This document shows, piece after piece, positions 3,883 through 47,177 of a DNA stretch of 64,000 nucleotides. The translations under genes were made by a program, and so were the position numbers. The notes under the pieces are model-generated. The model was not told the DNA's origin and made no database searches. It saw only the letters and a program-made list of their open reading frames with translations. Location of the stretch: positions 191,880 to 255,879 of the forward strand of contig BGKB01000005.1 of assembly GCA_003116975.1 (NCBI GenBank), in the 5' to 3' direction. Numbering within the stretch: the stretch's first letter is position 1; every line of letters begins with the position of its first letter. Source of the DNA: Aurantiochytrium sp. KH105 (taxonomy: Eukaryota > Sar > Bigyra > Thraustochytrida > Thraustochytriidae).

Positions 3883-4779
3883 CTACATGGGGTTGCGCTT
3901 GGCGTGAATGACAGCCTGGGTAAGGTAACACTCGCCGCTACAAAAGAAAAACTTGGAGGGGTCCTCGTGCGGCAACGTCCAGCTCGAGTTCGAGATGGTA
4001 CGGGGATATAATTTGCTGCAATGTCTGCATTTGTGGAGCTCTACGCTGGGCATGTCTTCGTCGGCGCCGTTTCCGAAGTTGAGCATGAAGCGCTTATCCA
4101 CGAGCATGTTGCCGTCAGACATGGGTGAACCGGGCGCCGTGGAGCGGCCCCCATCAACCTCTGTCCAGGACTTTGAGCGCGCAAAGGGCATGGGGCCATA
4201 CTTGCCCCCTGCTGCCCCCGAGGCCCCCGCGGCAGTGGCTCTTGCGCCCACGCAACAGAGCGCATCGTGGCTTTTGGTGCGCTTGCAGCCGGGCGCATGG
4301 CGCTGTTGGGCTGATGTTTGTGATCCTGTGTTTGCTAGTGCGTGGTTGCTTGCGGCGAGAATCTGCGAGAGAACTCCCTTGCGTCGCGCGACGGGCTGCG
4401 CCGCGGTTCCTGTGTGTGTGGAAGACGACGAGGACGACGATGAGGACGACGCCGAGGACTGGTGGATCGCGTAGCGATCCTCGTCGGGGATAATTCTCTG
4501 CGGCTGAAAAGGGTGGAACGAGCTGCCGCCGACGCTGCTTCCGAAGCTGCTGCCGCTCACGCTGCCGGCCTCCTGCGGCGCCACGGCGGGCGGCATCGCC
4601 TTGCCCGCCTTCGCCGCCTTCGCCGCCGCTGCCGCCTCCGCCGTCGGCGCCCGCGCGCCGCCGGCCGAGGATTTTTCCACGCTCGCTGCCGACGACGACG
4701 TCGCCGTGCCGCCGCCGACGGGCGACAGCGAAAACCGCACCTTGGACTTGGGCCGGGGCGCCGGCGCGGCCAGCGTCAT
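3883..4779 (-). CDS. Disordered protein with C-terminal FCS-like zinc finger
   Basis: About 298 residues from the ATG at 4779 (MTLAAPAPRPKSKVRFS). The frame stays open upstream, but that part is an Arg/Ala/Gly repeat peptide and is unlikely to be coding. Most of the protein is Ser/Ala-rich and low complexity, including a poly-Ser run. The last 50 residues contain HKCRHCSKLYPR, then KFFFCSGECYLTQ, giving C-x2-C...F-C-S-x-E-C followed by Q. This is the pattern of FCS-type treble-clef zinc fingers and is closest by eye to plant FLZ domains, though the spacer between Cys pairs (25 residues) is longer than the 17-19 usual there. Function is unknown; a protein-docking role would fit FLZ relatives. 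The zinc-binding call is inference from spacing. Confidence 0.6.
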   Translation of the reverse strand: MTLAAPAPRPKSKVRFSLSPVGGGTATSSSAASVEKSSAGGARAPTAEAAAAAKAAKAGKAMPPAVAPQEAGSVSGSSFGSSVGGSSFHPFQPQRIIPDEDRYAIHQSSASSSSSSSSSSTHTGTAAQPVARRKGVLSQILAASNHALANTGSQTSAQQRHAPGCKRTKSHDALCCVGARATAAGASGAAGGKYGPMPFARSKSWTEVDGGRSTAPGSPMSDGNMLVDKRFMLNFGNGADEDMPSVELHKCRHCSKLYPRTISNSSWTLPHEDPSKFFFCSGECYLTQAVIHAKRNPM

Positions 4780-6338
4780 CGCCGCTCCTGCGCCGCGCCC
4801 GCGCGCGCACGCACGCCGCCCGCTCGCGCGCTCGCCGCCCGCCCGCCCGCCCGCACGCACGCACGCGCGCGACACGCGCCCGCCTGCGATCTGGTTTTGC
4901 CTTCTTGTCCTTCTCCCCCGCCTTGTTCTTCTCCTCCTTCTTGCCTGTCCTGCTTGCGCGGCCTTCTCTGCCGCCGCCGCTGCTGCCGCGGCGCCCGGCT
5001 GCNNNNNNNNNNNNNNNNNNNNNNNNNNNNNNNNNNNNNNNNNNNNNNNNNNNNNNNNNNNNNNNNNNNNNNNNNNNNNNNNNNNNNNNNNNNNNNNNNN
5101 NNNNNNNNNNNNNNNNNNNNNNNNNNNNNNNNNNNNNNNNNNNNNNNNNNCGCCGCCTCGCCTCGCCTCGCCTCTCCGCCGCTCGCTCGCTCTCTCCCCG
5201 CGCCCGCGCTGCTGCGCCGCTGCTGCTGTCTGCGCGCGGCTGCGGCTCGAGCGGGTCTGCTCGCGTGCGCGTGCAGGCGTGCGAGCGTGCTTGCGCGGGC
5301 CTGTGAGCGCGCGCCTGCTTGGTGAGAGCTCGCGCTCTCTCTATCTTCGAGCGAAGCGAGCAGCCGCAGATGGCGCAGCGACAGCGAGCAAGGCGCGAGC
5401 CCGGCGACGCGACGCGACGCCACGCCACGCCGCGCCGCGCCACGCCACGCCGCGCCGCGCGAGCCGCGTGCAGGGCGAGCCGCGCCGCGCCGCGCCGCGC
5501 CGCGCCGGGGCGACGCGGGGCCGCGGGCGACGCGGCGCGAGGCAAGGATGAGCAGGTTGATCGATCGCGGCGGCGCGGGGCGCGGAGGGAGGGCGGGGGC
5601 GCGGGAGGGAGGGGGCGGCGGGCAGGAGGATCGGCACAGGCCGGCCGCCGCTGCTGCTGCTGCTGCTGTGCTTGCTTCCTCTGGCCGCCTTCCTTCCCTC
5701 CTTCCTTCCTGCCCGCGTCGCCGCCGTGTGCTCGCAGCAGGGAGTCACTTTATTCTTCCTTCATGTGTGGAGTATAGTGTATAGCGGGCCTAGGCCCGGC
5801 AGCAGAGGTAAAGTGGAGAAGCAGGACTCGAGGCGGAAGATCTCGGGCTGCAGCGGCTTTGCGAGACGGTCGGCCTGCAGCAGCAGCAGCAGCAGCAGCA
5901 GCGACAATTGCGACGCGGCCGAGAGAGAGACTGACTGACTGTCAAGGGTGGCAAGGAGGAGGCAAAAGAGGGCGGACGATTGAGAGATAGATGGATGGAG
6001 GAGGGAGGGATGGAGGGATGGATTGACACGGACCGAAAAAAATGCACACGGCCCACCAAAGTTTTACCACAAAGAAAGGCCAGCTGGCTGAGGCGCGCGC
6101 GCAAAGTACAGGCGCGAGCTCCGCGGGGTGCGCGGGGAAGATTTGGGGGGGGATGGAACTCGCACAACTTGCAAACTTGAGTTCGTAAAAACCTACTACT
6201 ACCTACATGGCGCATTCATTCTTTTATCATCACAATCAATCTCTCCCTCTACTCAGGCTTTCCGCGATCTCTAGTCGGCCAGCCAGTCAGCCAGCCTGCG
6301 AGCCAGCCACAGCCAGCTGGCTGCAACCAGCCAGGTCG
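4780..6338. other. GC-rich low-complexity intergenic DNA with assembly gap
   Basis: No supportable gene. The sequence is made of GCGC, CCGCGC and CGACG-type runs (5400-5530), a (CAG)n run at 5878-5902 and GGAT/GGAG runs around 5985-6025. The long ORFs on both strands are Arg/Ala/Ser/Pro repeats produced by base composition, and several cross the gap. Confidence 0.75.
5003..5150. other. Assembly gap (148 N)
   Basis: Run of N flanked by CCGCCG and CGCCT repeats, so the break is probably a collapsed or unsequenceable GC-rich repeat. The true length is unknown. Confidence 0.98.
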
Positions 6339-7161
6339 TCAAAGCGGGGTCGGCGCCGGCGTCGGACTCGCCGTAGGGGAAGAGGTGGAGGTGCTGCTTG
6401 GCTTGAGCGCAAAGACGAGGATCATGATAATGACGAAGATGAGCATAACGATGAGCGCCGTCAGCATGATCTTGCGGCGGTACTCGCGTTGCCGCATGCG
6501 GCGCAATATCTGATTCGCGCCCCCAATCAGACCGCTCGTCAACGTCACGCGCTCGTGGGCGCCAATGATCGTGGCGCGGTTCTGCTCCAGGTTCTGGGAA
6601 ATGCTCATGGCCACCTCCTCTGTCTCGGAGAGCACTTGGCGCGTTTGCAACAGAGAGTCCGTAGAACGGTCCATGCGAGCAGTCACCTCCGAAAAACGCG
6701 AACGATCTTGCTCCGCTGCCTGCGAGTAGGAAATGAGCGGCTCGTTGCTTGAACTCGCGCCCGCACGAGAATCAAACAGGTCCTGACGCTCTGTCTTTTG
6801 CTGCACGTTTGTATATTCTTGTCGGAGCGCCTTGAGCGCCTCTTTGTGCGCGCTGAGCTTTCGTTTCAGACTGCGCAACAAACAACAACACAGAATAATG
6901 TCCTCTCGTCAGTGCCAAGGACATTGATTGGATAGGGACAGCGATTTATGCTGCGATATCAACTTACGCTGGGCTTGGGTCTGTGCGGACTTCGACATTC
7001 ATTTGTCGGATGAGCGACTCCGCTTGCCCGAGATCGAGGTCGCATTGCTTGAGCACGCTGCGTCGCTTTGCAGGATTGTCTTGCAGACCATCGACCTGAG
7101 TAAGGCTGTCGCGCACAGCCTCCAGGATCGCCTCAAACTCGGCCTCATACGAGACGAACAT
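6339..7161 (-). CDS. VTI1: Vti1-family Qb-SNARE
   Basis: Tail-anchored SNARE acting in Golgi/endosome/vacuole membrane fusion. Two exons, 7161-6968 and 6870-6339, flank a 97-bp intron with donor GTAAGTT and acceptor GCGCAG. The splice gives one continuous 241-residue frame across ...RTDPSPA/LKRKLSAH.... The N-terminal part (SYEAEFEAILEAV, LIRQMNVEV) matches the Vti1 three-helix domain (compare ELLEQMDLEV in animals). The SNARE motif runs from about RMDRSTDSLLQTRQVLSETEE to QILRRMRQRE, and a 20-odd residue hydrophobic anchor follows (IMLTALIVMLIFVIIMIL). The protein then has an unusual 15-20 residue Ser/Thr/Pro tail that would face the lumen. At the zero layer, alignment to animal Vti1a (SHDREKI) places Asn (EQNRATI) where Asp or Gln is usual. 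Confidence 0.88.
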
Positions 7162-7780
7162 GTTGGCCTTTGCCCAGGGGGGCGAAAAATCTAGCGCTCA
7201 GAACAGCGTAGCACAGCGCAGCAATAGGTCGTGGCGTGGCCGCCCTTTCCTTTCGTCCTCGTCCTCGTTGTCGCCGTCGGCCTCGCTCGATCGTCCAGCA
7301 GATTCGCCAGAGCCTTGGCCAGCACAGAGGAACCTCAGATAGGAAACCGAGCTCTTGCGGCGCCTGCGTCAGGCCTACGCGTCGTGCGTTTACCTGCTTG
7401 TGCGCACGCGCGCAGCGCCCTCGCCTCTCGCCTCTCGCGCTCAGACCTTGACGCGCTCGATTTGGTTCTTCGTCTCCTACCCGAGCTCCTACCCTTCGCT
7501 ACGAGATCGCGACTAGGCTATCTCGCTCTCCGTTGTTCCCTTGCGCTGTAAATGGACAATTTCCCGACTAAAGTAGCGAGAACAAAGAAAATAAATGAGC
7601 CTAAAAATAATTGAAAGAATAAACAAACGGCGTCGAGTTGCTCTGCTCGCTCGCGCCAAACCCGAAGCACTCTCCGTTGGCCGCGCACGAGCGAGCGAAC
7701 GCGAGCGCAGGAGGCCCGTCTCTCACCCGCTCTCGCTCGCGCCGGGCGATACACCGAAGAGGCCGAGGACCACAGGCACA
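7162..7780. promoter_or_regulatory. Divergent promoter region of VTI1 and RPB11
   Basis: 619 bp separate the two start codons, which point away from each other. An A/T-rich stretch (about 7545-7625) stands out against the GC-rich surroundings. No specific element can be assigned. Confidence 0.5.
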
Positions 7781-8379
7781 ATGAACGCACCAGATCGGGA
7801 GGAGTCCGTGCTCCTCGACGAGACCACCGAAGTCAAGTAAGTCTTGGGCCGCGCTGGCGCGCAGCGCGGAGGCACACTCGTCACAGGCACGAAGACCTGG
7901 AAAAAGGATCTGACAGTCTTTTCCCTCTTGCTCTCGGCACCTTTTCTTTGTTCGCGCAGGGTTGGCTACAAGGTCGACAGCAAGATTGTCAACTCCGCGG
8001 ACTTCATCTTTGTCAAAGAGGACCATACTTTGGGCAACATGATGCGCATGTACGTTTCAAGCATTTATTATACAAGCAAGCAACTCGTAGCACATCACCT
8101 TGCTCCGTGCGGCAGCTAACAGATGCGCATCGCGCTTGCAAAAACGTTCAAATCACACACAGGAAACTTCTCGAAGACGCCACCGTCCGCTTTGCGGGCT
8201 ACCGGCATCCCCATCCTCTCGAGACGCTCATTGAGATGAAAGTTCGCACAGATGGATCGGTGACTGCTCTCGACGCCATTCAAAATGCCACGACCAATCT
8301 TAACAAGGAGATTCGCCTGCTCGAAGAACGTTTTCGCGATGCTCGTGACCAATACAACGAATCGGTTGGCATGATGTAG
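7781..8379 (+). CDS. RPB11: RNA polymerase II subunit RPB11
   Basis: Small subunit that pairs with RPB3 to nucleate Pol II assembly, equivalent to half of the bacterial alpha dimer. Three exons: 7781-7836, 7960-8049 and 8163-8379, with donors GTAAGT and GTACGT and acceptors GCGCAG and CACACAG; both introns are phase 2. The spliced product is 120 residues, against 117 in human. It starts MNAPDREESVLLDE, contains KEDHTLGNM (the family's KEDHTLGN signature), then FAGYRHPHPLE, and ends with a LLEERFRDARDQY helix. Each matches human POLR2J closely in order and spacing. Two introns in so short a gene stand out in this mostly intronless window. Confidence 0.96.
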
Positions 8380-12215: not shown

Positions 12216-15200
12216 ATGGCATCAGACGCGTCGAGTATTGAGGATGCGATCAAATTGATGTCCGAGGGCAGCAAACGCCTACGGTACGTCAATGGTGCAT
12301 GTACTTGCAAAAGATAATATAGGCTGACCAGCATGGGCGCGATAATACCTTCTCCAAACGTATGCTCGACCATGATTTGTTGTCTTCTTTGGTGACTCTC
12401 CACAACCATTTCTGCTTTTCCCTTATCGTCAACGATGTGTAAACGCAGTCTTCAATTTGATAAAATCGGCGATGCTGGCGCAATATTGCTAGCAGATGCG
12501 CTCGCGAAGAACTCGTCGCTGCAGACGCTGATGTAGGTAACAATGGGGAAAGAAGAACTGTGCGCAAGGAGCAAAAGCGACTAAACAGCAAGCACGTTGC
12601 AATAATTGCATCACATTAAACGGATGCTTAACGTTACTGTCAATGGTTCTTATACCACGCTATACACATTTTGGCTCACGGCATTGTCCATGACGCACAA
12701 ACGCAGACTTTTGAGTAATAATATCGGTCCTGGTGGCGCAAAGGCGCTAGCAGATGCGCTCGCGAAAAACTCGTCATTGCAGACGCTCTGGTAGGTAGCA
12801 GTTGGGAAAGAAGGACTTTGCGCAAGGAGCAAAAGCGACTGACCAGCAAGCACGATGCGATAATCTTATCACACCAAACGGATGCATAATGCTGCTATGA
12901 ATGATTTCGGCACCACGCCATGCACATTTTGGTTCATGACATTATCCATGACGCACGAACGCAGGCTTTCGAGTAATAATATCGGCGATAATGGGGTAAA
13001 GGCGCTTGCAGATGCGCTCACGAAGAACTCGTTCTTGCAGACGCTAGAGTAAGTGACAGTAATGAAAGAAGGACTCTGAGGGAGTAAGCAAGAATGACTG
13101 ACCAGCAAGCACGTTGAAACCATCTTATCACGCCAAACGGATGCATAATGCTGCTGTCAATGGTACTTGTACCACGTCATCCACACTTTGGTTCACGACG
13201 TTTTCCATGACGCATGGGCACAGTTCTTCGAAAAGCAACATCAGCGATGATGGTGCAAAGGCGCTAGCAAATGCGCTCGCGAAGAACTCGTCGCTGCAGA
13301 TGCTGATGTAGGTAACAATGGGGAAAGAAGAACTGTGCGCAAGGAGCAAGAGCGACTAGCCAGTAAGCACGTTGCAATAATTGCATCACGCCAAACGGAT
13401 GTATAATGCTGCTGTCAACGATACTTACACCACGCCATACAAATTTTGGTTCATGGCATTGTTCATGACGCACAAACGCAGACTTTCGAGTAATAATATC
13501 GGTCCTGGTGGCGCAAAGGCGCTTGCAGATGCGCTCGCGAAGAACTCGTCACTGCAGACGCTCTGGTAGGTAGCAGTGAGGAAAGAAGGACTTTGCGCAA
13601 GGAGCAAAAGCGACTGACCAGCAAGCACGATGCAATGATCTTATCACACCAAACGGATGCATAATGCTGCTATCAATGGTTTCTACACCTCGCTCTGTAC
13701 GTTTTGGTTCACGAAATTCACCTATGATGTACAAACGAAGGCTTAAGGATAACGAAATCGGCGATGATGGCGCAAAGGCGCTGGGAGATGCGCTTCCGAA
13801 GAACTCGTCCTTGCAGACGCTCAGGTAAGTAAAAGCGAATATTGAAATACAATGCGCTAGAAGCAAGAATGACTGAACAGCAAGCACGTTGCAATGATCT
13901 TATCGTACCAACTGATGCTCAACGCTGTCGTTTTCCGTTCTTGCTTGATGCCATGCACGTTTGCTTCGATAAACAAACACAGGCTGAATTCCAACAAAAT
14001 CGGCGACGTTGGCGCAAAGGCGCTAGCGGATGCTCTGACCAATAACAAGTCACTGTTGACTTTTTTAAGGTACGTTGCAGAAAGACTTGGAGTGGCATGG
14101 CCTGTGTTCCGCTGACGTTCGCTACGCCATTCCACAGCTTGATCGACAACAAGATTGGCAACGCGGGAGCGGAGGCACTAGCGACTGCGTTGGAGAGCAA
14201 CGAAATTCTCCAAGGACTAGGGTACGTTTCCATGATGCTGACACTGTGGCACTCAATGTATAAAATGACAAGTGAATGCTCACATGCCGGAAATTCCAAA
14301 CAGTCTGTCTCGTCGCCGTATTTCCCCCGAAATCCTCGCTCGTATTGAGGCTCGAGTAAAGCTCGCGAAGATCGAGCTAAAGGATCTCAGCACAGTTGCC
14401 TCTAAGGCCCTCTTAGCGGATGAAAAAGTACGCTGGGGTCGCGCCAAGCTCATGGTTGTGGGCAAAGGCGCCGCAGGCAAGACATCAACGATTCGCACGC
14501 TTCTAGGACAACCGTATATTTCCGATCATGACTCAACCATTGGTGTGGAACTCAAGTTGATGCGCACGCGTGACTGGAAAGAGCGCAAACAAGTCGGCGA
14601 CGCTGATCTTGGCGAGCAATTTGCAAAGTACAAATACCGTCGGCAGGACGTTGCCGAGGGTCTCGACCAGCACTTGTCGAAAGATGATCTGAGACCCCCT
14701 AAATCTTCTCGAAAGTCCACCTCGAGTCGTGGATCAAAGGCAGCATTTGACAAAAGGGAGATTGCCAAAGCCGTGCGTACACCGCTTCGTCTCCATATAA
14801 AGAAGCAAGCCGACAAGCCAGACGAGGAGATTAGCTTCACGATCTGGGATTATGGTGGACAGGAAGTCTTTTATGCCCTACATCATCTATTCTTGACGCA
14901 ATACGGCGTTTACGTGCTGGTTTTCGACATGCGCGAGATTCTAGGCAAGGAGCGTGTCAAAGATAAGCTCGACGAGACTGAGTACGCGAAGCTCGCCTCG
15001 CAAGAAAATTCTTTGGAAACGCTTCGCTTCTGGATCGACTCCATTCGTCTGCACGCACCGGATGCCAACATTGCCCTTGTGGGGACATATCTTGACCAGG
15101 TACCGGGCTCTGAGGAGCACGAGGAGATCGAAGACACCTTAGACACGGAGGTGCTGAGACCTTGCAGCGCAAAGCCCGTTGTGCTGCTGAATGACGAAGC

Positions 15201-17067
15201 AAGACTCTGGTTTTTCCCGATCGACAACACCGATCGGGATGACAAGCCCGATCGGGTCAGGTCGCTTCGCGAGTCGCTTTCGAAGGCGGTTGCTGACAAG
15301 GACTTTGTCAAGAAGAAAGTCCCTTTACGATGGTCCTACTGCTTGGAGAAGCTGCTCTCGCAAGACAAGGATTACTTGTCGCTGGATGATGTAGAAAGAA
15401 TGGCAATAACAGATTGCCACATTTCGAAAGAAGACATATCCAAGATGCTCAAGTACATGCATGAACTCGGCGTGCTTGTGCACCTGACGACAGGCCAACA
15501 TGACGTACTGCGACAGATTGTCGTGATCCGGCCGCAATGGCTATTGGAAAACTTATCGCGTGTCATCTGCGACCCGAGCATGAATCACATGAAAAGGCAC
15601 AAGAAGAAGCTGCTGCATCAAGGAAAACTGCCGAGGAATCTACGAGATGCGCTCGATGTCTGGTCAGAACGTGGAGTTGCCAGTCGGCAACTACTAGATT
15701 GGCTATGGCAGGGACAGCCGATCGAATACCTCGTTGAGCTGATGTACGCAATGCTGTTGGCATGCCCGAGTCCTTGGATCGAGGATGTCGACGAGGATGG
15801 CGATATCGTCGACAAGGAGGGTGCACTTCTGATACCGAGCCTTTTGCAACCAGTGAAGAATGACGTAAGGACAGAGGCGCTTTGTGGCCTGGGCGAGCAA
15901 CGCGCTTTGGCTTATATAAAGTTCAAAGTCCTCCCCAAAGGCGTGTACCAACGCTTCATTGCCAGTCTCATACAGAGTTTGCCGGGCCTCGTGGGCGTGA
16001 GAAATGGTGTCGTATTCTCCGACTTTGCGAGTATTGCCTTTGAAAATGTGGACATGATTTTGGAAACAAGTGGCAGGCGGGTGACGCTTCACTTCAAGAC
16101 ACCCGCGAAGAAAAGTCTGAAGAGTCACGTCAAGATTCTCCAGCATTGTCTGGAGAGCATCGACGCGTCTTTCATGAGGGGAAATCTTGGACCGAAACTC
16201 TTTCTCAGCTCTGACGGCTCCGATAGCGAAGATGCATGTGCCTCTGTCGATGCATTTGCAGATGCAATCAACAACGAGGTTCCCTCATTGCAAAGGGGAA
16301 TACGTCTTTCTTTGGCACTGTTCTCGCCATTTGTAGAGGATGGTGAGGCCGCACAAGGCTTGTATTCATCCGTCACTAGTGATGCCAAGCCTTTCGACGT
16401 CTTCCTGTCGCATGCCTGGGGTGAGAGCATGGAGGTCCATGGAATGGTGAAGGCCATCGCGGGTGCACTTGAGAGTCGCGGAATCCGCTGTTGGCTCGAC
16501 GAGAAAGACATTGGCACAGAGGTTCTCGATTCGATGGCAGATGGCATTGACCGGTGCAAAGCGGTCGTGGTCTTCGTGACCCAAGAGTACATGAGGAAGG
16601 TCAATAAAGAAAGGACAGAGCTCGACAACTGTCGGGCCGAGTTCTGTTATGCTCTTCAGCGTGTAAAGCCCGCGAGTATGATCCCTTGTGTATTGGACAA
16701 AGAGATGGTGGACACGAGCACGTGGGAGGGGCGTTTCGGGATATTGTGGAGTGGCAATCCTTTGTATGTTCGAATGCTGAATGGGGGCCAGCCAGACGAG
16801 GTGGACGCTCTTGTACGGTCGATCAGACAGGCCATTGGCTTGCAAGAGGATGCAACGAAGCCTCCTGAAGCAGCAGAACATGATGACGATGCCAAGGAAG
16901 CTGAGAAGACGTCGGTAGCGGCAGACATAGCAGTCACGAGCACAAGTGCATTGAGCAGATCTGATGACCAAAACGAGAGCAACATCGTCTCAGCAGAGAT
17001 GGACAATGCGGAAGAGGAGGACGAGGTGGTTCATGAAGCACGCGGAAAGCGGAGAAGGCTTGATTAG
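12216..17067 (+). CDS. LRR-Roc-COR-TIR protein, ten exons
   Basis: Exons: 12216-12283, 12449-12532, 12707-12790, 12965-13048, 13224-13307, 13482-13565, 13741-13824, 13983-14069, 14138-14221 and 14304-17067. All introns are GT-AG and phase 2. The spliced length is 3507 nt, an exact 1168-residue frame. Exons 2-9 each encode one ribonuclease-inhibitor-type LRR of 28 (once 29) residues, consensus LSSNNIGDxGAKALADAL, then KNSSLQTL. A Roc GTPase follows: P-loop GKGAAGKT (301-308), DYGGQ (430-434) and a G4-like GTYLD (508-512). Next comes a COR region (VVIRPQWLLENLSRVI, then LLIPSLLQ), and a TIR domain from about 945 (FDVFLSHAW) with candidate catalytic Glu1027 in NCRAEFCYAL. An acidic tail ends in GKRRRLD. 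The likely role is nucleotide-gated sensing with TIR output; ligand and enzymatic activity are inference. Confidence 0.9.
12449..13740 (+). repeat. Tandem exon-plus-intron LRR array (258-bp unit, nested 775-bp unit)
   Basis: Five consecutive units, each an 84-nt LRR exon plus a 174-175 nt intron. The introns share long segments: a GGAAAGAAG-type start, GCGCAAGGAGCAAAAGCGAC, ACCAGCAAGCACG, ACGGATG.ATAATGCTGCT and CATGACGCAC.AACGCAG. Intron 12533-12706 pairs best with 13308-13481 and intron 12791-12964 with 13566-13740, each at an offset of 775 bp, showing a later duplication of a three-unit block. Exons 8 and 9 carry LRRs, but their introns are shorter and unrelated. Confidence 0.88.
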
Positions 17068-19767: not shown

Positions 19768-22131
19768 TCAGGCGAGAACCTCCGCGCGGTTGTCCTCCTC
19801 GTCGTGGGCGAAATCCTCGCTCTCGTCCTCGTCGTCGTCCTCGGCGGCAAGATCGAGGTTACCGGCTGCCTTGAAGGAGCCCTGGGGCTCTGCGTCCGCC
19901 TCGCCCTTGACATCGTACGAGCCGACGGTAGAGTACGGCACAAAAACGCTCTTGGACTCGTAAAAGGCCTCAATGATGTCGTCGTACTTGTCTGCGACCA
20001 CCGAACGCTTGAGCTTGAGCGTGGCGGTGAGCTCATCGGTGGCGACGGAAAAGTCGAGCGGAAGAATGGTGAATTTTTGGATACGAGCTGCGTTGGAGGG
20101 AGTGACATCGCCATCGTCACCAATCTCCTTGAGCTGCTGCGTGATCTCGTCAATGAGCGCTTCGTTGTTACAGGCATCCTCGATGGTCTCTCCATACTCC
20201 TTGGCAGGTCCGTCAAGCGCCGAGGTGCCGGGAAGCTCTCCCGTGGCGCCCTGCGTCTTGAGGGTGAGCAGGACGGCCATGAACTTGCGCCTGTCGCCAA
20301 CCATCATGGCGTTGGAAACAAAAGGCATGCGCGCCTTGATGGCGTCCTCAATGGGTACGGGCGCCACGTTCTCGCCACCAGCACCAATGATGAGCTCCTT
20401 GTAGCGGCCAGTGATTTTGACCATGCCACGCGTGGAGATGGCACCCTTGTCACCACTGTGGAGCCATCCCTCGGAGTCGATGGTCGCTGCATTCTTCTCC
20501 TCGATCTCGGCGACATGGTCGTCGCCAAGCTTGGGGTTGGCAAGGTAGCCCATCATGATGTGGCGACCACGGAAGCAGATTTCGCCCTGTTCCTCCTCGG
20601 AGGCGTGAAGAATGTTGTCTGTGCGTGGGCATTCGGTCTTGGTACCGTCCTCGGCAACCCTGAAAACGCGGACCTCGCTGCCAGGCAGCTCAAAGCCGAC
20701 GGTGCTCCACTCGTGGGCGTCATCGAAGGACCAAGTCGTGGCGCCCGTGCACTCAGACATGCCGTAGACCTCGTTGATGTTGATGCCGAGGGCACCAAAG
20801 TACATGAGGGTCTCGCGAGTCATGGGTGCTGCGCCGGCAAAGGCAAACTTGCACTTGGAGAGGCCCAGCTTGCCCTTGATGAGACCGAGAAGCTTTTTGT
20901 AAATGCCAAGGGGGCCGTAGCTGGGGCTCTTGCCGGATCCGCCGAGCTGAAGGGCGAGCTGGTGCTCGAGGCCCTTCTTCTTGGCGGTGGTGGAGAGCTT
21001 CTTTTTGAGGCCAGTGGTTTGGGCGCCGACAGCCTTGAGCTTTTCGGCAATTTTTTCCCAGACGCGGGGCACGCCGAGGAAGAAGGTCGGCTCGACAGCG
21101 CCGAGACGCTGACCGAGGGTGCCGCGCTTGAGATCGTAGGGTCGCGCAAAGTTCACCGAGCACCAGCCCTTCATTGTCGCGCTCATGAGAATGGGGCAAA
21201 CAATGTCGACCATCATGCCGGCGACGTGGGAAAGCGGCAGGTACGAGATCAGACGCTCTTCTTCATTGGACTTGCCCACCGCGCCCGAGTAGGGAAGCAC
21301 GGAGGCAGACTCGTAGACCAAGTTGTCGTGCGAGATCATGACTGCCTTGGGGCGGCCCGTGGTACCGCTCGTGTAAATGAGTGCAGCGCACATGCCGGGC
21401 TCGATTTTGGCAATGCGGTCCTCGAGGGCACCCTGTTCGACAGTCTTGCCGAGGGCGACGAGGTCCGAAAAGGTGAGGACGTTGACCACGGAGCCATCTT
21501 CGCGGGTGATATCACTGCCGCCATCGTAAGCCCAGCAGACGATGGCCTTGAGGTAGGGAAGGTCCTCGACGACGGACTTGAATTTGTCGAAGCAAAGCTT
21601 GTTCTCCACCACCGCGACGGCCGTGTCGCTGTGGAAGGCCTTGAACTGGACCTGCTCTGCTGTGTCGGAAGGGTAGATGCCGGCGACCTTGCCGCCGGCG
21701 TGAATGGCGCCGAGTGCGGCGAAGAACCACTCTGGCGCATTAAAGCCAAAGACCGAGACGGTGTCGTGCTGCTCGAGGCCGAGGTCCATAAAGGCCTTGG
21801 CGACATTGTGGACGACAGTACGGTACTGCTTAAAGGTCCAAGACTTCCACTGGTTGCGGGGCAGGGCGGCCGGTGGCTCCTGGCCAGGGGCAAGAGGCGG
21901 GAGGTTCTCCGTGCGGATAACGACCTTGTTTCCACGCTTTGCGACGGCCTGGTCGAAGAGCTCGATGAGGGTCTTGGAGGGGCACTGCTCGGCAGAGCCG
22001 ACGCCGGTCTCCGAATAGCGAATGTTGGCTACTGCATCCTTTTCGCAGTTCCAAAAGGGGCCATCGCTCTCGTTGTACACAACGTAGTCTGACGGCTCGT
22101 TGGCCGGGGCTGTTTCCAGAGGTTTCGGCAT
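19768..22131 (-). CDS. ACSBG: Long-chain acyl-CoA synthetase, bubblegum (ACSBG) type, copy 1
   Basis: 787 residues, single exon. Activates long or very long fatty acids to acyl-CoA through an acyl-AMP. The AMP-binding loop YTSGTTGRPKAVM sits at about residues 250-262, and YGMSECTGATTWS is the A5-like motif. GRYKELIIGAGGENVAPVPIE, then MPFVSNAMMVGDRRKFMAVL, is the pattern that separates ACSBG from other ACS families. No signal peptide or clear membrane span; the C-terminal 40 residues are very acidic. I chose the ATG at 22131 (MPKPLETAP) because it aligns with the start of the second copy; the frame continues 48 codons upstream through Arg/Glu-rich leader. Likely supplies acyl-CoA for lipid synthesis or breakdown. 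Confidence 0.93.
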   Translation of the reverse strand: MPKPLETAPANEPSDYVVYNESDGPFWNCEKDAVANIRYSETGVGSAEQCPSKTLIELFDQAVAKRGNKVVIRTENLPPLAPGQEPPAALPRNQWKSWTFKQYRTVVHNVAKAFMDLGLEQHDTVSVFGFNAPEWFFAALGAIHAGGKVAGIYPSDTAEQVQFKAFHSDTAVAVVENKLCFDKFKSVVEDLPYLKAIVCWAYDGGSDITREDGSVVNVLTFSDLVALGKTVEQGALEDRIAKIEPGMCAALIYTSGTTGRPKAVMISHDNLVYESASVLPYSGAVGKSNEEERLISYLPLSHVAGMMVDIVCPILMSATMKGWCSVNFARPYDLKRGTLGQRLGAVEPTFFLGVPRVWEKIAEKLKAVGAQTTGLKKKLSTTAKKKGLEHQLALQLGGSGKSPSYGPLGIYKKLLGLIKGKLGLSKCKFAFAGAAPMTRETLMYFGALGININEVYGMSECTGATTWSFDDAHEWSTVGFELPGSEVRVFRVAEDGTKTECPRTDNILHASEEEQGEICFRGRHIMMGYLANPKLGDDHVAEIEEKNAATIDSEGWLHSGDKGAISTRGMVKITGRYKELIIGAGGENVAPVPIEDAIKARMPFVSNAMMVGDRRKFMAVLLTLKTQGATGELPGTSALDGPAKEYGETIEDACNNEALIDEITQQLKEIGDDGDVTPSNAARIQKFTILPLDFSVATDELTATLKLKRSVVADKYDDIIEAFYESKSVFVPYSTVGSYDVKGEADAEPQGSFKAAGNLDLAAEDDDEDESEDFAHDEEDNRAEVLA

Positions 22132-24803
22132 TCTCACTGTTCTGTATTGAGTCGTCCTGTTATCCCGCGGACGTATACTTTGCCTTTTTTCCAGGTCGAT
22201 CGGTTGTTGCTCGGGTTTCAGTTTTGCTCGCTCGCTCGCTCGCTCGCTCAGTTGCTTCTTGCTTTGCTTGCTCACCTACCTGCCTGCCTGCCATTCGGGC
22301 TGCTCGGGATAAGAGAGAACAAGCCCAAAAATGGGAAGTGGGGACGTGAAGCACTTGCGACAGTTCCCATTTTCTTCTTGTGCGGCCGAAAAGATTTGCT
22401 TCTGTTATTTGCTATCGGTCGCTCGCCTCACTCGCCTCCCCTCCTCCACTGCTATGCGTGCGGTGCAGCCTGGGCCGCTCTGCTGCTGCCGGCAGAATCT
22501 GGGCTGCTCGTACGTACCTCACTCCTCGCTCGTGGGTAGTCATGCCATCACTCTGTCAGTCAGACGTGCAGTGCGTGCGTGCGTGCGTGCGTTGCGTGCG
22601 TGCAGACCAAACTCCATCGGCCAGCTCCATGCCACCGCGGAAGTGGTGTGGCAACTACTAGCGCACGCACTCCCAGCCTGCCTCCGTTCACACTGTGAGG
22701 GTGGGAGAGCCCTCACCCGGCACCCCTGCAAAGAAGTAGAGGCCGCGTCTCGCCTCCGCCATGCGTGCACAAGCGCTCAAGACCACCTTGGTTGATTGAA
22801 CACAGTCCACGACGGCGCGCCCGGCTACGTTCTTTCTCCGCCCCCTCCTCCTCGTCGGCCTCCTCGAGGTCGTCGTGGTGCTCGAGGCCGAGGTCGAGGT
22901 CGAGGTCGCGATGCGATGCGAGTCAACCCGACCCAAGCGAGCAACTGCAACCTGCAAGCAAGCAGGCAAGGTCGACCCGAGTTCCAAGGCGGCCGAGACG
23001 CGTGTCCGAGCGAGCCGCGGCGGCGAGAACCGGACTGGCGCGGCGTGCCGACATGCCGCAGCCTGCACTTGACTGGCCGCGAGCGAACCTCGCCCGGGGC
23101 GTGCGGTAAGTAAAAGTAGCCGAGGGCCCGGCCGGGGTGCCCCTCTTCTCCGCCGTACGCGCCGCCAATTCGCCGCTCCCGCTTGCTGCTTTCTTCGCCG
23201 CCTTCACGCCTGCACCGCGCGCGGGTGCCTGTCGCGAGGCCTCGGCGGTCTCGGCCTTGAACTCGGCCTTGGACTTGGTCTCGGTCTCGGAGGGCGCTGC
23301 AGCTTGCCAGATTGAGGATTTTGGTCGAAGTCCCGAGTTGGGTCGCGGCTCGGCCACTGCGGCAGGCCGGACCAACCCGGCGCCGCGGCCGGCCTGGATC
23401 CCGCGGCGCGGCCCTCGCTCGCCACTTGCGCAGGTGCTGCGCCGCAGACAGGGTCCCGGGGCTCGACCCTCGCGACCGCGGCGACGGGTGCGCGGCATGA
23501 CGAGCTTGTGATCGTCCTGGTCCACCTGGGCACGAATGCATGAATGAACAACAAAAATCGACAAAAACAACTCAATTGAAACAACACAATAAACGACAGA
23601 ACCAAACGGAGCAATCAACAGCCAAAACCTGCAAGGCCGTCATGCGTCTTGCGCTCCAGTCTTGACTCGAGCGTCGTTGTCTGAAAAATGATGCCATTTA
23701 TCCCAGCCTGAGCCATGCGTGCCTTGAACCATCTCATCTCGGCCAATGTAGTAAATTCCGTCCAAACCGACCAGAGATCCGTCACTCCGTCCTCTGCTCG
23801 GCACGCCAACTTGCGCAGAGCGAGCGACCCGAGCGCGCGGTGCCGGGCGGGCGCGGCGATCCAAGACGTGCCAGGCGAGACGTCCCGGGTCTCCTCCGCC
23901 CGCTTCCAAGATACGCCAAGGCCCGGGACCTCGCTGGGCTGCTACTACACTAGTACTAGTGAGTGCCTCTCTAGCTAGCTACAGCTGGCTGCACACGCGC
24001 TCTCCTCGCCTCGCTTGCCTCGCCGCGGTTGCCTCGCCGCGCCTCGCGCCGCGGGCCCGGGGACCTCGCGTGGCCGCGGCCGCGCAGCGTCGGAATTGCG
24101 CGCCGCAGCGCAGGGCAGGGCAGGGCAGAGCAGCGCCAGAGGCGTGGCGGGCAGTGCACGCGCCGCGCTCGAGCAGTGCAGAACGGAGCGGAGAGAGCGC
24201 AGCACGTGCACGGCATTTGGACCGGCAGCGCCGCAGGCGGAAGAAGAGGGAAGGGAGGAGTGAAGGAAGGAAGCAAGGAAGGAGCGAGGGAGGGAGCTTG
24301 TGGCAAAGACTTGGTGGACGCGGTTTGATTGATGATTGGATTGTTTGTTTGTTTGTTTGTTTGTTTATTTGTTTCTTCGTCAGTTTGTTTGTTTGTGATG
24401 AGCTTGCTGTTGCGGCTGCGTATGAAAATAAGCGGCTTCTTGTGGCTAGCCGCAGCAAGATACACGGCGGGATTGAATTTCGATCGACTTATCGATCAAG
24501 CGGCTGCATTCAGCATTTTCTTCTTCCCTAAAGAGCAGCACCAGGGCAAGCAGAAAATAAAGAAAAAGAAAGCAAAACCAAAACCACAGACATCATTAAA
24601 AAAAAGGATACGACGAGTGCCAAGGAGGACATCTCGAAAACACAATGGGGGAAGAGAGGGGATGATGCAGGCGGCCGCGGCCTCGTCTGCTCCGCGCATG
24701 AGGTATAAATGAAATGAACGGAAGCGAGCGGAGCGGAGCTGGGCTGGGCTAGCACAGGATTGATCGACCGTGCGTGCATGCAAGAATCGGGCGGCGTCAA
24801 CAT
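22132..24803. other. GC-rich intergenic between the ACSBG copies
   Basis: 2.7 kb holding the upstream region of copy 1 and the 3' flank of copy 2. Short repeats abound: CTCG (22227-22249), GTGC (22570-22602), GTC/GAGGTC-type runs near 22860-22915 and TTTG (24341-24399). ORFs of up to 238 codons are Arg/Ala/Pro-rich. One minus frame (about 23100-23500) has a Lys/Ala/Glu stretch (KSKAEFKAETAEA) that looks slightly protein-like, but nothing ties it to a family and it is not called. Confidence 0.6.
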
Positions 24804-27146
24804 CTAATTGTCCTCGTCAATCGCCTCGAGGACATCGACGTTTTGAAGATCCGGATCATCGTCGCCAATCATGCTAAAGTCGCCCTTGAAGGAGCCATCG
24901 ACGATGGCGTCGTCGACCGGGCCGCCCGTGGCGTAGGCGCCAACGGTCGAGTACGGCACAAAAACGCTCTTGGACTCGTAAAAGGCCTCGATGATGTCTT
25001 CGTACTTGTCTGCGACCACGGAGCGCTTGAGCTTGAGCGTGGCCGTGAGCTCGTCTGTGGAGACGGAAAAGTCGAGCGGGAGAATGGTGAACTTTTGGAT
25101 GCGAGCCGCGTTCGAGGGCGTAACATCGCCGTCATCACCGATCGCCTTGAGCTGTGTCGTGATCTCGTCAATGAGCGCCTCGTTGTCGCAGGCATCCTCG
25201 ATGGTCTCACCGTAGTCGGCGGCAGCGCCCATGAGCTTGTTCGTACCAGGAAGCTCGCCCGTGGCGCCAACCGTCTTGAGGGTGAGGAGGACAGCCATGA
25301 ACTTGCGCTTATCTCCGACCATCATGGCGTTGGAGACAAAAGGCATGCGCGCCTTGATGGCGTCCTCGATAGGGACGGGCGCAACGTTCTCGCCACCGGC
25401 GCCAATAATGAGCTCCTTGTAGCGACCGGTGATCTTGAGCATGCCAAGGGCAGAAATGGCGCCCTTGTCACCGCTGTGAAGCCAGCCCTCGGAGTCGATC
25501 GCGGCAGCGTTCTTCTCCTCGATCTCGGCAACGTGGTCGTCGCCGAGCTTAGGGTTGGCAAGGTAGCCCATCATGATGTTACGGCCACGGAAGCACACCT
25601 CGCCCTGCTCCTCCTCGGTGGCGTGCATAATATTGGCGGCGCGCGGGCACTCGGTCTTGGTACCGTCCTCGGCAATCTTGAAGACGCGGACCTCGCAGCT
25701 GGGCATCTCGTAACCGACAGTGCCCCACTCGTGGGCCTTGTCCGTGGACCAGGTGACGGCACCGGAGCACTCGGACATGCCATAGACCTCGTTTACGTTG
25801 ATGTTCAGCGCGCCAAAGTACTGAAGGGTCTCACGAGTCATGGGCGCGGCACCGGCAAAGGCAAACTTGCACTTGGAGAGGCCCAGCTTGCCCTTGATGA
25901 GTCCGAGGAGCTTCTTGTAGATGCCAAGGGGGCCAAAGCCAGGGTTGGCACCGGAGCGGCCGATTTGCTGCTCCTCCTGGAACTCGAGACCGCGCTTCTT
26001 GGCGGCCGTGGAGAGCTTCTTCTTGAGGCCAGTGGTTTTGGCACCGACGGCCATAAGCTTTTCCTGAATCTTTTCCCACACACGGGGCACGCCAAGGAAG
26101 ATGGTGGGCTCCACGACATTGAGGCGCTGACCCAGCGTCCCGGCGCGCAGATCGTACGGGCGAGCAAAGCAGACGCAGATGCGGCCCTTGTGGAACGCAG
26201 TGGCAATGATAGGGGCAACGATGTCAACCATCATACCGGCGACGTGCGAGAGAGGCAGGTACGAGAGAATGCGCTCCTCGGCATTGGTCATGCAGGCTCC
26301 TCCAAGGTTGGGAACGACGGCACTGGCCTCAAAAACGAGGTTATCGTGCGACATCATAACGGCCTTGGGGCGGCCAGTGGTGCCACTGGTGTAGATGAGG
26401 GCAGAGCACATGGTGGGCTCGATCTTGGAGATGCGCTCGTCAAGTGCGGCCTCCTCGACGGTGTCGCCGCGCTTGAGAAACTCAGCAAAGGTGAGGACCT
26501 CGACAACGGAGCCGTCCTCGCGAGTGATGTCCGTGGCTTCATAGTCCCAGCAAACAATGGCCTTGAGGTAAGGAAGATCCTCGGCGACCTCGGCAAACTT
26601 CTTGAAGCACTGCTCATTTTCGACAACGGCAACAGCGGTGTCGCTGTGAAAGGCCTTAAACTGGACCTGTGCGGGCGTGTCTGAGGGGTAAATGCCGGCG
26701 ATTTTGGCACCTGCATGCACGGCGCCGATGGCACTAAGGAACCATTCGGGTGAGTTGAAGCCAAAGATGGAGACGGCGTCATGCTGCTCAACGCCGAGGT
26801 CCATGAGGGCCCTGGCGATGCGGTGGACGTCGGCCTTGTATTGTTTCCAGGTCCAGGACTTCCAGTCCTTGAGCGGAAGCGCCTCCGGGGGTTCTTCGCC
26901 GCGGCGGAGCGTGGGCATGTTTTCCGTGCGGAAGGCGATTCTGTTGCCGCCGCGCTTGACGGCCCTCTCGAAGACGTCAATGAGCGTGAGCGCAGGGATG
27001 ACACTCTCGGAGCCCACGCCGGTCTCGCTAAAGTTCACGCGCGAGACGCCGCTGGACTCGGCAGTCCAGAAGGGGCCATCCTCCTCGTGATAGACGGCGT
27101 AGTCGCTCGGCTTGTTCACCGGCGCGGCGGCGTCGGGGGTGGGCAT
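24804..27146 (-). CDS. ACSBG: Long-chain acyl-CoA synthetase, bubblegum (ACSBG) type, copy 2
   Basis: 780 residues, single exon, ATG at 27146 (MPTPDAAAPVNKPSDY). Same motifs and same order as copy 1: YTSGTTGRPKAVM, YGMSECSGAVTWS, GRYKELIIGAGGENVAP. The two proteins are very similar along nearly the whole length and differ mainly in the first 15 residues, scattered substitutions, and the C-terminal tail, which here ends in DLQNVDVLEAIDEDN. Same strand, 2.7 kb apart, so a tandem duplicate. Both copies keep all catalytic motifs, so both are probably active; a difference in chain-length preference or expression would be inference. Confidence 0.93.
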   Translation of the reverse strand: MPTPDAAAPVNKPSDYAVYHEEDGPFWTAESSGVSRVNFSETGVGSESVIPALTLIDVFERAVKRGGNRIAFRTENMPTLRRGEEPPEALPLKDWKSWTWKQYKADVHRIARALMDLGVEQHDAVSIFGFNSPEWFLSAIGAVHAGAKIAGIYPSDTPAQVQFKAFHSDTAVAVVENEQCFKKFAEVAEDLPYLKAIVCWDYEATDITREDGSVVEVLTFAEFLKRGDTVEEAALDERISKIEPTMCSALIYTSGTTGRPKAVMMSHDNLVFEASAVVPNLGGACMTNAEERILSYLPLSHVAGMMVDIVAPIIATAFHKGRICVCFARPYDLRAGTLGQRLNVVEPTIFLGVPRVWEKIQEKLMAVGAKTTGLKKKLSTAAKKRGLEFQEEQQIGRSGANPGFGPLGIYKKLLGLIKGKLGLSKCKFAFAGAAPMTRETLQYFGALNINVNEVYGMSECSGAVTWSTDKAHEWGTVGYEMPSCEVRVFKIAEDGTKTECPRAANIMHATEEEQGEVCFRGRNIMMGYLANPKLGDDHVAEIEEKNAAAIDSEGWLHSGDKGAISALGMLKITGRYKELIIGAGGENVAPVPIEDAIKARMPFVSNAMMVGDKRKFMAVLLTLKTVGATGELPGTNKLMGAAADYGETIEDACDNEALIDEITTQLKAIGDDGDVTPSNAARIQKFTILPLDFSVSTDELTATLKLKRSVVADKYEDIIEAFYESKSVFVPYSTVGAYATGGPVDDAIVDGSFKGDFSMIGDDDPDLQNVDVLEAIDEDN

Positions 27147-30100
27147 CTTTACCTCCTCTCGCTCGCTCGCTCACACGCTGTCTGTCTTGGCTGTCTTGCT
27201 GTCTCTCGGGCGGTCTGTCTGCAGCGAGCTGCGCGTCGGCGGGTCGCGATGCACCGCGGCGGATCTGGCAAGCGGGCAGCCGTGGAGGTTTCGGAATTGA
27301 TCGCTCCGCCGATCGATACCGATCGATCGGCCGATCGCTCCAGCGAAGTCGTGTCGCGCGCGCGACCGGGGACAGGAGGCCGGGGTCCCAGTGCGCTCCA
27401 GAGGGTGAGAGAGGGAGAGAGAGGCAAGTCACTTAGAGAGCGCGTGTGAGTGCACGCGGTACAGAGGGTGAGGCGAGAGGGGGAGAGAGAGAGAGAGGAG
27501 CGCGGCCAGGAAATGAAAGGACGGGAAATGGAAATGAACGACCAACTACGTGTTGTTGCGGGAAACACACGCGGCCTGCAAGGCGTGCAGCAGCGCCTGG
27601 ACTTGGAATCATAACGCAGGCGGATGCCGCTCGGGCGTGCCAGAGCCTGCGGCTCTGCTTGCGTGCGTGCGTGCGGGCTTGCTTGCTTGCTTGCTTGCTT
27701 GCCTTGCTTGCTCGCTTCGCCGCCCTCTTTCTTGACTTGTACTGGCTACGCCGTTCGCGCGGGCAGATCGGGACAGGATGCTGGAAGCCAGGAATGCAGA
27801 TCGGGTGCAGGCGGCGGTCGGTCAAGGCTGCCTCTCTGCGCGGCGCGGCGCCTGTGACGAGTTTGGCGAGTGTGAAGGAATACGTGGGCTTGGAAAGGGA
27901 CGACCTGAGCGGGCGGGAGAGGATGGACGGAGGGAGGGATGGATGGATAACGAAGGCGGGGAGGAGGAGCAGCAGCAGCAGCTGCAGCTGCAGGTAGTGT
28001 GCACAGCCGCAGGGAGCGGTGGCTGGAAAATGGACGACCGTGAGAGCCACACTTCTTCCTGGTGATTAACATTGTTTTCTTTTGCTTTCTTTGATTTCTG
28101 TATCGGAAAACTTTCGCTCCTTCTTCACCATTTCTCCCTCGGCGCGCCGCGACCCGACGCAACGGAGGGAAGACCCGGCGCATGCATGGAAAGCCCCGCG
28201 CGCACGCGTGAAATGCCGCAGCCGCAGCCAGCCAGCCAGGCGCGGGAGATTGATCGATGGGGACTGAGCGCGCTCATTCTTTACTTGTATTATTATTTCA
28301 TTTTTATTGATGTTTCTTTTTGCGCAAAAGCGACTGCGACCGACAGACTGCAATGCGAGCTCGCGCTCCTCGGCGCTCGCGCCGCCACAGCGCGCTGTAG
28401 CTAGCTAGCTAGCTGCAACCGCCGCGTGCCTGCAGTGCAGCTGCTAAGCTGCTGCTACAGCTGCTGCGAGCGCGAGCGTGCGCGACACGACCAGCGTGCC
28501 GCGCCAGCTGACGCGCACTTGCGCAGGAATACTTCCCTTGGTTGGTCCGGCGAAGCGAAGGAGAGAAAGAAAGGAAAGATAAGGCACGCCTCCACCGATG
28601 ATACTTCCCGCCTGGCGCGGCAGCAGCAGTGCAGCTGCAGCTGGCTGCCGCAGGCGCTCGGCTCGGCTCGGCTCGGCTCGGCTTCGGTCGTCGTACCGCG
28701 AGAACGTTCAAGTGGCGTCGCGTCGCGTCAAGTGGCGCCGCGTCGCGAGGAACCAGCGCAGCAGCGGCAGCGGCGCGGCCAGTGGTGAGACTGTCTGCGG
28801 CACGTGCACGTGCTGCGCTCGGAGGCCTTTCAAAAACCTTGCAAGGAAGAAAGAAAGAAGTAGGGCCATCACTCCGCGCACACTAACTGCCACCTCGGAG
28901 CGGCCGTGGCGTGACGCGCAAAATTCGCGACAATACTTGTCATTTTTATTTTTATTTTTTTTCTCGTTGGAAGGTTTTCCACGCGGCTTCGAGGCGGCGA
29001 AATTTAACAGACCCAGTGCGCTTGCCGGGGGGGGTAGCATGGAGAGGAGGGGGGTAGGAAAAAATGGGCGCACAGCGAGGCACAGCATGAAAAAAACGAC
29101 CAAGTACACCCTCTGTAGCAAGGGTGAAAAATGAGTCGATCATCAAAAATATGACGAAGGCCGCCCTCTGTGGCAAGAGTGTAGAATGGCTCCAATCCCT
29201 GCAGTAAAGGGGTGGAGAGGAAAATGAGCCCAAAATTCGACAAAGTCCAACTGATGTAGTGAAGGGTCGTACAAAGACACTGCAAATGCAAGAAGGAAAC
29301 GTTTGTACACAAATGATTTCGTTTAAGCAGTTTCGGAAGTGGTAGCACGGCTCATAAGAACTACCTTTACGGGTCTTGAAAAGCGTTCTCGCCATCCTTG
29401 CGNTCCAGCCGTTGCGGCGTCGGCCAGCTTTGCGTTTGATTGCCTCGCAAGGCTCTGATCGGCCAGGCTCGCAGAAAGAAGTTCGCAGCGCCGCAGCAGC
29501 AATGCAGAGCAGCCAGCTCGTGCCGCACCGCGCGAACTCCAGGCGCGCTTGCTGTTGCTCGCATGTTGGTCGCGGGAGAAGGAGACGGAAACGCGGCGCT
29601 CTCGCCGCTGAAAGAAGGAAAACAATGCAGAAAGCTGACCAGCCCAGCACGCCTCGCCGCCCGCCGCGTCCCGTAACAGCACCTTCGATATCTGAGTCAT
29701 GAGATATGATAGCGGACCCCGCGAAACTAGCCGAGACGCGGGGCCCGGGTCCCCGGGGGGTAGACCGGCGACGTCGACGGTGCACACGCCGTGTCGACAG
29801 GCGCGCGGAGACCGCGCGCAAGGAGGGAGGGAAGTACGGCGCACGGGGCCTCGGCGCGCAGACGTGCGCGGCGCCCCCACGCCGGTCCGATAATCGGCGC
29901 CGGCGCGGCGGCAGAAGGGACAGGTCCATTAGGTCCATTCGATCTGGCTGCTGCTTTTTTTCTTTTGTTTCTTTTTGGAAAGCGCCGCGCAAGCAAGCAC
30001 GCGTCGCGCGTCCCATGTTTTTACGTATTGCTCAAGGCAGCCTGAGCGAGCACGATCTCGATCGGCCTCCGCACGTCAGGGCAGCTGCAGTACTACACAG

Positions 30101-46620: not shown

Positions 46621-47177
46621 CTTGCAGTAGCCCGTGTCGCGTCGACGCAACGCAACCTCGCAGCCTCGCGGTGTGATGAGAAGAGAGACGAACGATGCCG
46701 ACGGTCTCGGCCCCTGCGAACCTTGGGAGCAGCGGCAGCACGTACTTGCTGCCTCGCGATCAGCTGTCTTCTTTGCCACTTTGGTGGACATGAACGTGGT
46801 TCTTCTCTCCTAACTCTAAGTGCAACTTTCCCGAGACTTGCCTCTCAGACATCATCAAAGTATAAATAAGTAAATTTCTTTAGGCTCCAGAAACAGACCA
46901 ATGGCAGCAGCGAGACGCGACAAACGATATCCTTCGCGCCTCATGCGGTCTCTTCCTCCATTCATACGCAGTCTTGAAGATCAGTCTCGCAAAGTTTGCG
47001 AGCGTAGGCCTATCATCTGCTGATTGATTTTACGGCGCCATTCTGCGCCGAAGTTTGTTCATCCGTTCACGTGTGTTTTGCGTTTTCTTTTGTGAAACCT
47101 TTGACTTGATCTTGATCATCCGCCCGCCTGCCCGAGGCTCCCTTGCCCAATTCGGCTCGGCGAATCGCGTGTAAACG
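46621..47177. other. Divergent upstream region of the PPC and LC8-motif genes
   Basis: 557 bp between divergent starts. If the longer PPC start at 46791 is used it shrinks to 386 bp. No element identified. Confidence 0.55.

Follow-up and report, generated by a model that had tools for sequence, protein, structure and literature searches.

The 64,000-nucleotide stretch of contig BGKB01000005.1 analyzed here (the window, taken at its full length) contains, at 12216-17067 on the + strand, a predicted gene in which leucine-rich repeats (LRRs), a Roc GTPase, a COR region, and a C-terminal TIR domain are joined in one protein. We rebuilt this gene independently from the raw sequence and obtained ten exons encoding a product of 1168 aa that ends at a TAG stop, with GT-AG boundaries at all nine introns and exon lengths that sum in frame. 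This is the spliced frame of 1168 residues, with eight LRRs of the ribonuclease inhibitor (RNI) type and canonical splice sites throughout, that an earlier sequence-only reading had described, and at the level of sequence we regard the gene model as confirmed: it looks real and intact, with a frame and an LRR array that go beyond chance. The exons, the tandem array, and the domains of the predicted protein are as follows.

12216..12283, + strand: exon 1, with the ATG and the N-terminal cap (MASDASSIEDAIKLMSEGSKRL), phase 2 out
12449..12532, + strand: exon 2, LRR1, 84 nt, phase 2-2
12707..12790, + strand: exon 3, LRR2, 84 nt, phase 2-2
12965..13048, + strand: exon 4, LRR3, 84 nt, phase 2-2
13224..13307, + strand: exon 5, LRR4, 84 nt, phase 2-2
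13482..13565, + strand: exon 6, LRR5, 84 nt, phase 2-2
13741..13824, + strand: exon 7, LRR6, 84 nt, phase 2-2
13983..14069, + strand: exon 8, LRR7, 87 nt, phase 2-2
14138..14221, + strand: exon 9, LRR8, 84 nt, phase 2-2
14304..17067, + strand: exon 10, with the end of the LRR region, Roc, COR, TIR, an acidic tail (low model confidence), and the stop
12460..13918, + strand: tandem array, 5.7 copies of a 258-bp unit made up of one exon and its intron, with 77% matches
14461..15200, + strand: Roc GTPase region (approximate limits, from Pfam and motifs)
15322..15762, + strand: COR-A, Pfam stretch, residues 588-734
15916..16176, + strand: weak COR-B-like region (E=0.023, below the cut-off), in a Roc-COR part that folds like LRRK and CtRoco
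16387..16845, + strand: TIR domain, residues 943-1095 (TIR_2 match at 947-1048; candidate catalytic Glu 1027, alternative 1020)

Domain searches bear out the order LRR-Roc-COR-TIR that the sequence-only reading had given. The spliced N-terminal 321 residues match LRR_6 in Pfam (E=1e-39), and the last exon matches Roc (E=4e-17), COR-A (E=2e-12), and TIR_2 (E=1e-15), all above the Pfam cut-offs; COR-B is the part that does not pass. The P-loop (GKGAAGKT, residues 301-308) is intact, as had been claimed, and is separated by a long insert from WDYGGQE (residues 429-435), and the presumed G4 position is occupied by GTYLDQ, which starts at residue 508. With a predicted Roc domain that carries a P-loop and a COR that follows it, the product is a putative ROCO protein, and both sequence family (the TIR_2 match) and fold (see below) identify its C-terminal domain as a TIR. 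There is no membrane-like segment in the predicted protein (the highest 19-residue hydropathy mean is 1.29) and no signal peptide by eye, which most likely places the LRR sensor in the cytosol and makes the protein soluble and intracellular.

Roc, COR, and TIR lie within a single stop-free frame of 932 codons, and joining these domains therefore needs no splice. An artifact in which two genes have been merged is rejected for Roc-COR-TIR because one uninterrupted frame spans all three domains, and the earlier claim that the fusion is authentic holds up. The splices at either end of the LRR exons are supported by the LRR beta-strand pattern (LxLxxNxI), which continues across both the exon 1/2 and the exon 9/10 junctions, with a partial ninth LRR at the start of exon 10. 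We note that frame alone does not fix the exon 9/10 junction: ten AGs were tried as exon 10 acceptors, and the frame is open from two of them, 14304 (1168 aa) and 14391 (1139 aa), of which only 14304 continues the LRR pattern. In addition, the stop-to-stop frame that opens at 14269 includes an ATG at 14284; this ATG lies within intron 9, shares the reading frame of exon 10, and on sequence grounds could give rise to an LRR-less Roc-COR-TIR product. The LRR exons and exon 10 might then not always be one transcript, with Roc-COR-TIR expressed alone from this ATG; the in-frame start and the second acceptor speak for such an arrangement, but the pattern runs on over the 14304 splice (LQGLG/LSRRRIS, the slash marking the junction) and the phase of exon 9 matches, and we consider it quite improbable.

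The most distinctive feature of the gene, which the sequence-only reading omits, is the tandem exon+intron array. No other tandem array in the window scores as high (1589, versus 238 for the runner-up), and each of the eight LRR exons is in phase 2-2 and encodes one RNI-type repeat of 28-29 residues, so that gain, loss, or skipping of any one of them would keep the frame. Exons 3 and 6 are 95% identical and exons 2 and 5 are 75% identical, introns 2/5 and 3/6 are each 88% identical, and the exon starts in both pairs are 775 bp apart, whereas the next pair departs from this block pattern (exons 4 and 7, 79%; introns 4 and 7, 66%). The sequence suggests that a two-unit block (exon 2 to intron 3) was duplicated to give exon 5 to intron 6 and that the copies then changed unevenly. 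Between exons 2 and 5, 21 of 84 exon bases differ, compared with 21 of 174 intron bases (Fisher p=0.011); the trend for exons 3 and 6 is the opposite (4 of 84 exon bases versus 21 of 174 intron bases, p=0.07), and there is thus no uniform excess of change in exons. Nonsynonymous differences across LRR1 to LRR6 are concentrated in the beta-strand (repeat positions 1-6), where their proportion (pN) is 0.48, versus 0.12 in the rest of the repeat (positions 7-28; permutation p=5e-5); this split was picked post hoc, with the columns already seen. The replacement pattern would fit a variable binding face, and it might equally arise by conversion or by exchange of exons.

Structure models, which are fit for judging fold and not side chains, agree with the domain assignments. 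The exon 10 product was modeled with an alignment (A5) of the window sequence and 73 of the 81 usable ROCO stretches from the prokaryote and virus contigs described below; those left out (L028, L047, L058, L064, L066, L069, L070, and L083) were presumed near-duplicates, chosen with no formal cut-off. Its best fold matches in the PDB, over the Roc-COR part, are LRRK1 (8e05, E=8e-18), LRRK2 (8tzf, E=3e-16), and the Chlorobium tepidum Roco protein CtRoco (6hlu, E=3e-16), over 635-688 columns. A model of the TIR alone, from 12 sequences, matches 24 PDB chains at E<=0.001, and all 24 are TIR domains or TIR-containing proteins, including SARM1, TIR-STING, and ThsB; the best is PdTIR (3h16, E=2.4e-6). 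The sequence-only reading had placed a TIR at residues 940-1080 and had accepted that lack of a TIR fold there would refute it; the TIR_2 match and these 24 fold matches both place a TIR in this region. The predicted helix C (construct residues 86-102, with a predicted local distance difference test score [pLDDT] of about 60-70) carries two candidates for the catalytic glutamate, E1020 in TELDN and E1027 in NCRAEF (construct residues 88 and 95, respectively). HMMER alignments to PdTIR and AbTir end at ELD and pair the ELD glutamate of those proteins with E1020; judged by the usual TIR motifs, E1027 is favored by its C-x-x-E-[F/L] context and its spacing from strand 4. The pattern D-N-C-x-x-E-F-x-Y-A occurs at nine loci in the viral_contigs collection, none of them TIR-like by eye, and these do not settle the catalytic glutamate. 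TIR matches in the plasmids collection come from 29 records, and among the 20 matches listed, all end before helix C.

The sequence-only reading had also called this architecture novel. A two-sequence Roc-COR alignment was used to scan genome_contigs, which covers 84,980 species of bacteria and archaea; this returned 149 relatives, of which 79 distinct loci (L002-L080) were retained. A scan of viral_contigs (IMG/VR) with alignment A1 returned four (L081-L084). The sample consists of the 80 relatives with the highest similarity, and fractions within it are therefore not frequencies. Roc and COR-A matched in all 83 of the ROCO frames fetched, and a P-loop is present in 81, the other two (L007 and L019, which run off the 3' ends of their contigs) being too short. 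The earlier remark that a kinase is the usual C-terminal domain of a ROCO protein fits some animal and amoebal members, but not this bacterial set. Pfam searches of the frames, together with a local TIR profile and single scans, show LRR, Roc, COR, and a C-terminal TIR_2 in at least 11 of the 83 frames (L002, L015, L054, L056, L057, L074, L075, L076, L078, L080, and L084; COR-B did not reach 0.001 in L075), a lower bound because the first 42 frames were judged on the 25 commonest of 53 families and because L007 and L019 are cut off at their contig ends. Ten of these are in Chloroflexi/Anaerolineae, cyanobacterial, planctomycete, and Bacteroidetes records of genome_contigs; the LRR-Roc-COR-TIR protein of L084 (IMGVR_UViG_3300028585_000519, open reading frame 4732-7830) is on a contig filed as viral. 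The bacterial combination is also in print: passages of one paper (PMC8195603) describe LRR-AP-GTPase-COR proteins with at least 24 different C-terminal domains, TIR among them, and treat them as counter-invader conflict systems. The LRR-Roc-COR-TIR order is therefore not new, and its claimed novelty is rejected. Those bacterial proteins have the same order, with a C-terminal TIR_2, and the same sensor-switch-effector layout as the window gene; they differ in being encoded by uninterrupted single frames rather than ten exons, and their best LRR matches are to LRR_4, LRR_8, or LRR_14, with weaker LRR_6 matches in L056, L075, L076, and L078.

That at least 10 of the 79 loci from genome_contigs share this order raises the question as to whether a ready-made bacterial LRR-ROCO-TIR gene was gained laterally and later acquired introns and duplicated LRR exons. 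The best LRR match, an RNI-type LRR-Roc-COR frame in a Phycisphaerae metagenome-assembled genome (L079; 40% over 213 residues), could be taken the same way. However, this frame has no TIR match, RNI repeats are so easily matched that we read no descent from it, and the segments differ in their best match (LRR, L079; Roc-COR, L002; TIR, L015), with identity to the window just 15-21% across alignment A5. Moreover, although GC content at third codon positions is lower in the gene (Roc-COR, 0.58; LRR exons, 0.60; TIR, 0.65) than in stretches of five neighboring frames (0.68-0.78), the difference is mild, and the TIR value is near that for myosin. We give lateral gain little probability. The L079 frame itself (4273-7761) carries a long LRR_6 array ahead of Roc-COR and, as judged by eye, a hydrophobic segment at its C terminus. 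The exon 10 product has no relatives in the phages collection at 1e-5, and viral_contigs yielded none when either the exon 10 protein or the TIR was used as a single query. In the plasmids collection it finds one record, an Acaryochloris Roc-COR gene next to separate LRR and DUF4062 genes. These adjacent LRR, Roc-COR, and DUF4062-like proteins on plasmid pMB06 (typed conjugative; L001, 2061-4852) form a split-gene LRR-ROCO layout, in which the DUF4062-like match scores 22.5 bits, under the cut-off of 24.7.

Better-known proteins share parts of this architecture. LRRK1, LRRK2, and CtRoco, whose Roc-COR fold matches that of the window gene, have LRRs before Roc; the LRRKs carry kinase and WD40 domains after COR, and CtRoco is not known to have a TIR. 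Plant TIR-NB-ARC-LRR receptors and SARM1 have the TIR fold in common with the window gene, and in these, too, the TIR is the output of a switch or oligomerization module; that module is NB-ARC or ARM/SAM, where the window gene has Roc-COR, and the domain order differs. A protein of Chondrus crispus described in passages of PMC11378527 joins Roc-COR and TIR as the window gene does, but with tetratricopeptide repeats (TPR-ROCO-TIR) in place of LRRs. In Aplysia, according to passages of PMC9334734, ROCO domains are present in proteins classed as Toll-like receptors (TLRs) and MyD88s and in a further TIR protein, and two putative TLRs, a class described by its TIR and LRR domains, also carry Roc and COR; set beside the window gene by description, these two have Roc-COR with TIR and reportedly LRRs, together with an extra Mbt or EF-hand. 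Brown-algal LRR-ROCO genes, as portrayed in passages of PMC11378527, have one phase-2 exon per LRR, amplified LRR exons, a variable concave (beta-strand) face, and alternative splicing; their LRR exons are 72 bp long and encode 23-aa LRRs, and they have no domain besides LRR-ROC-COR. The window gene shares with them the one phase-2 exon per LRR (8 of 8 here), the amplified LRR exons, the variability of the beta-strand face, and the LRR-Roc-COR core, but has 84/87-bp exons, 28/29-aa LRR_6 repeats, and a terminal TIR; it is a parallel, TIR-ending version of the brown-algal design as those passages present it. Literature searches pairing the TIR domain with thraustochytrids, or Roco with labyrinthulids, found no paper.

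The window is eukaryotic, as indicated by its spliced introns and by matches to myosin head, MAP65, Mtr4-type, and V-SNARE domains. It holds no further copies of the ROCO, TIR, or LRR-exon segments by tblastn of three segments (hits elsewhere in the window are no better than E=0.29), blastn of 12440-14300 against the window gave no match outside the gene at 1e-3, and a tRNA scan and an Rfam scan at gathering thresholds found nothing. Elsewhere in the window, a 1157-codon stop-free frame at 60355-63825 (+) has a WRKY19-type zinc finger (PF24906, E=2.6e-23) and contains a 12-bp tandem array (GAGCTCGCAGCT) at 61032-61123. Two neighboring AMP-binding (acyl-CoA synthetase-like) frames, 19771-22275 (-) and 24807-27170 (-), have the same two Pfam domains and are possibly a tandem duplicate pair. 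A PCC-domain ('Plants and Prokaryotes Conserved') protein is encoded at 46072-46809 (-) (E=1.4e-30), and a 67-bp unit is present in two tandem copies at 30918-31050 (93% matches).

We infer from these features a receptor in which the RNI-type LRR arc would be the sensor, Roc-COR the GTPase/dimerization switch, and the C-terminal TIR the output. A ligand or partner bound on the LRR arc would alter the nucleotide state of Roc-COR or its oligomerization or dimer form, the changed Roc-COR would cluster the TIR domains, and the clustered TIRs would hydrolyze NAD+ or nucleate a TIR signaling complex. The output would most likely be immune, self/non-self, or cell-death signaling, and the LRR arc would have been remodeled over evolution via tandem duplication of the 258-bp unit. 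We put at roughly 0.55 the probability of a cytosolic LRR-gated Roc-COR switch with a TIR under its control, probably for immune sensing or the sensing of non-self; the term 'immune-type receptor' in the sequence-only reading is plausible on this basis, but is inferred only. The same architecture could instead be non-immune, with the ROCO protein acting as a scaffold in cytoskeletal, growth, or developmental signaling and the TIR as a non-enzymatic module for protein-protein interaction. Many TIRs act as scaffolds, and amoebal and animal ROCO proteins serve cytoskeletal or kinase signaling, which together with the two competing glutamates lends this explanation some weight. Nonetheless, the LRR replacements cluster on the presumed ligand face, and in bacterial LRR-ROCO proteins the C-terminal position is filled by conflict effectors, TIR included, as passages of PMC8195603 have it; we regard a scaffold as a doubtful account of this gene.

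Several observations weigh against the LRR-gated, immune-type switch. COR-B fails the Pfam cut-off. The exon 10 model is of middling quality (mean pLDDT, 66.7), and its matches to LRRK1, LRRK2, and CtRoco have template modeling (TM) scores by query length of 0.38-0.40; the TIR-only model is likewise middling (pLDDT, 70.6), with a TM score of 0.50 by query length for PdTIR and flavodoxin-like folds among its matches from E=1.4e-3 on. The TIR active site is ambiguous, in that pairing and spacing disagree as to E1020 and E1027. Positive selection on LRR1 to LRR6 is not established: the ratio of nonsynonymous to synonymous change (dN/dS) exceeds 1 in just 1 of 15 pairs (LRR1-LRR4, 1.90; the others, 0.11-0.79), and the corresponding ratio of proportions (pN/pS) stays below 1 at positions 1-6 (0.96) and is 0.47 at positions 7-28. 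Identity of the TIR to those of bacterial ROCO-TIR proteins is 11-18%, and common descent of the whole fusion is thus not demonstrated. Finally, passages of PMC11378527 report four or fewer ROCO copies in each of several species of the stramenopile, alveolate, and rhizarian (SAR) group, including Schizochytrium aggregatum, which, if these species are related to the source of the window, would speak against a large repertoire.

What is new here is the combination of exon-modular RNI-LRRs with a TIR, the LRR-Roc-COR-TIR order itself being already known: the gene joins the LRR-ROCO-TIR layout with the brown-algal one-exon-per-LRR design, a combination not found in the literature searched. We raise tentatively, and as less likely than the switch itself, the idea that this is an exon-modular intracellular receptor of a presumed protist, in which germ-line duplication or conversion and exon skipping of symmetrical, tandemly duplicating RNI-LRR exons would place many recognition surfaces before a Roc-COR-gated TIR NADase, invented independently of brown-algal LRR-ROCO proteins and plant TIR receptors. 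If the TIR is an active NADase, the gene would offer a testable eukaryotic case of a GTPase-gated TIR receptor, and if the LRR exons are skipped or reshuffled, receptor diversification would be measurable directly from long reads.

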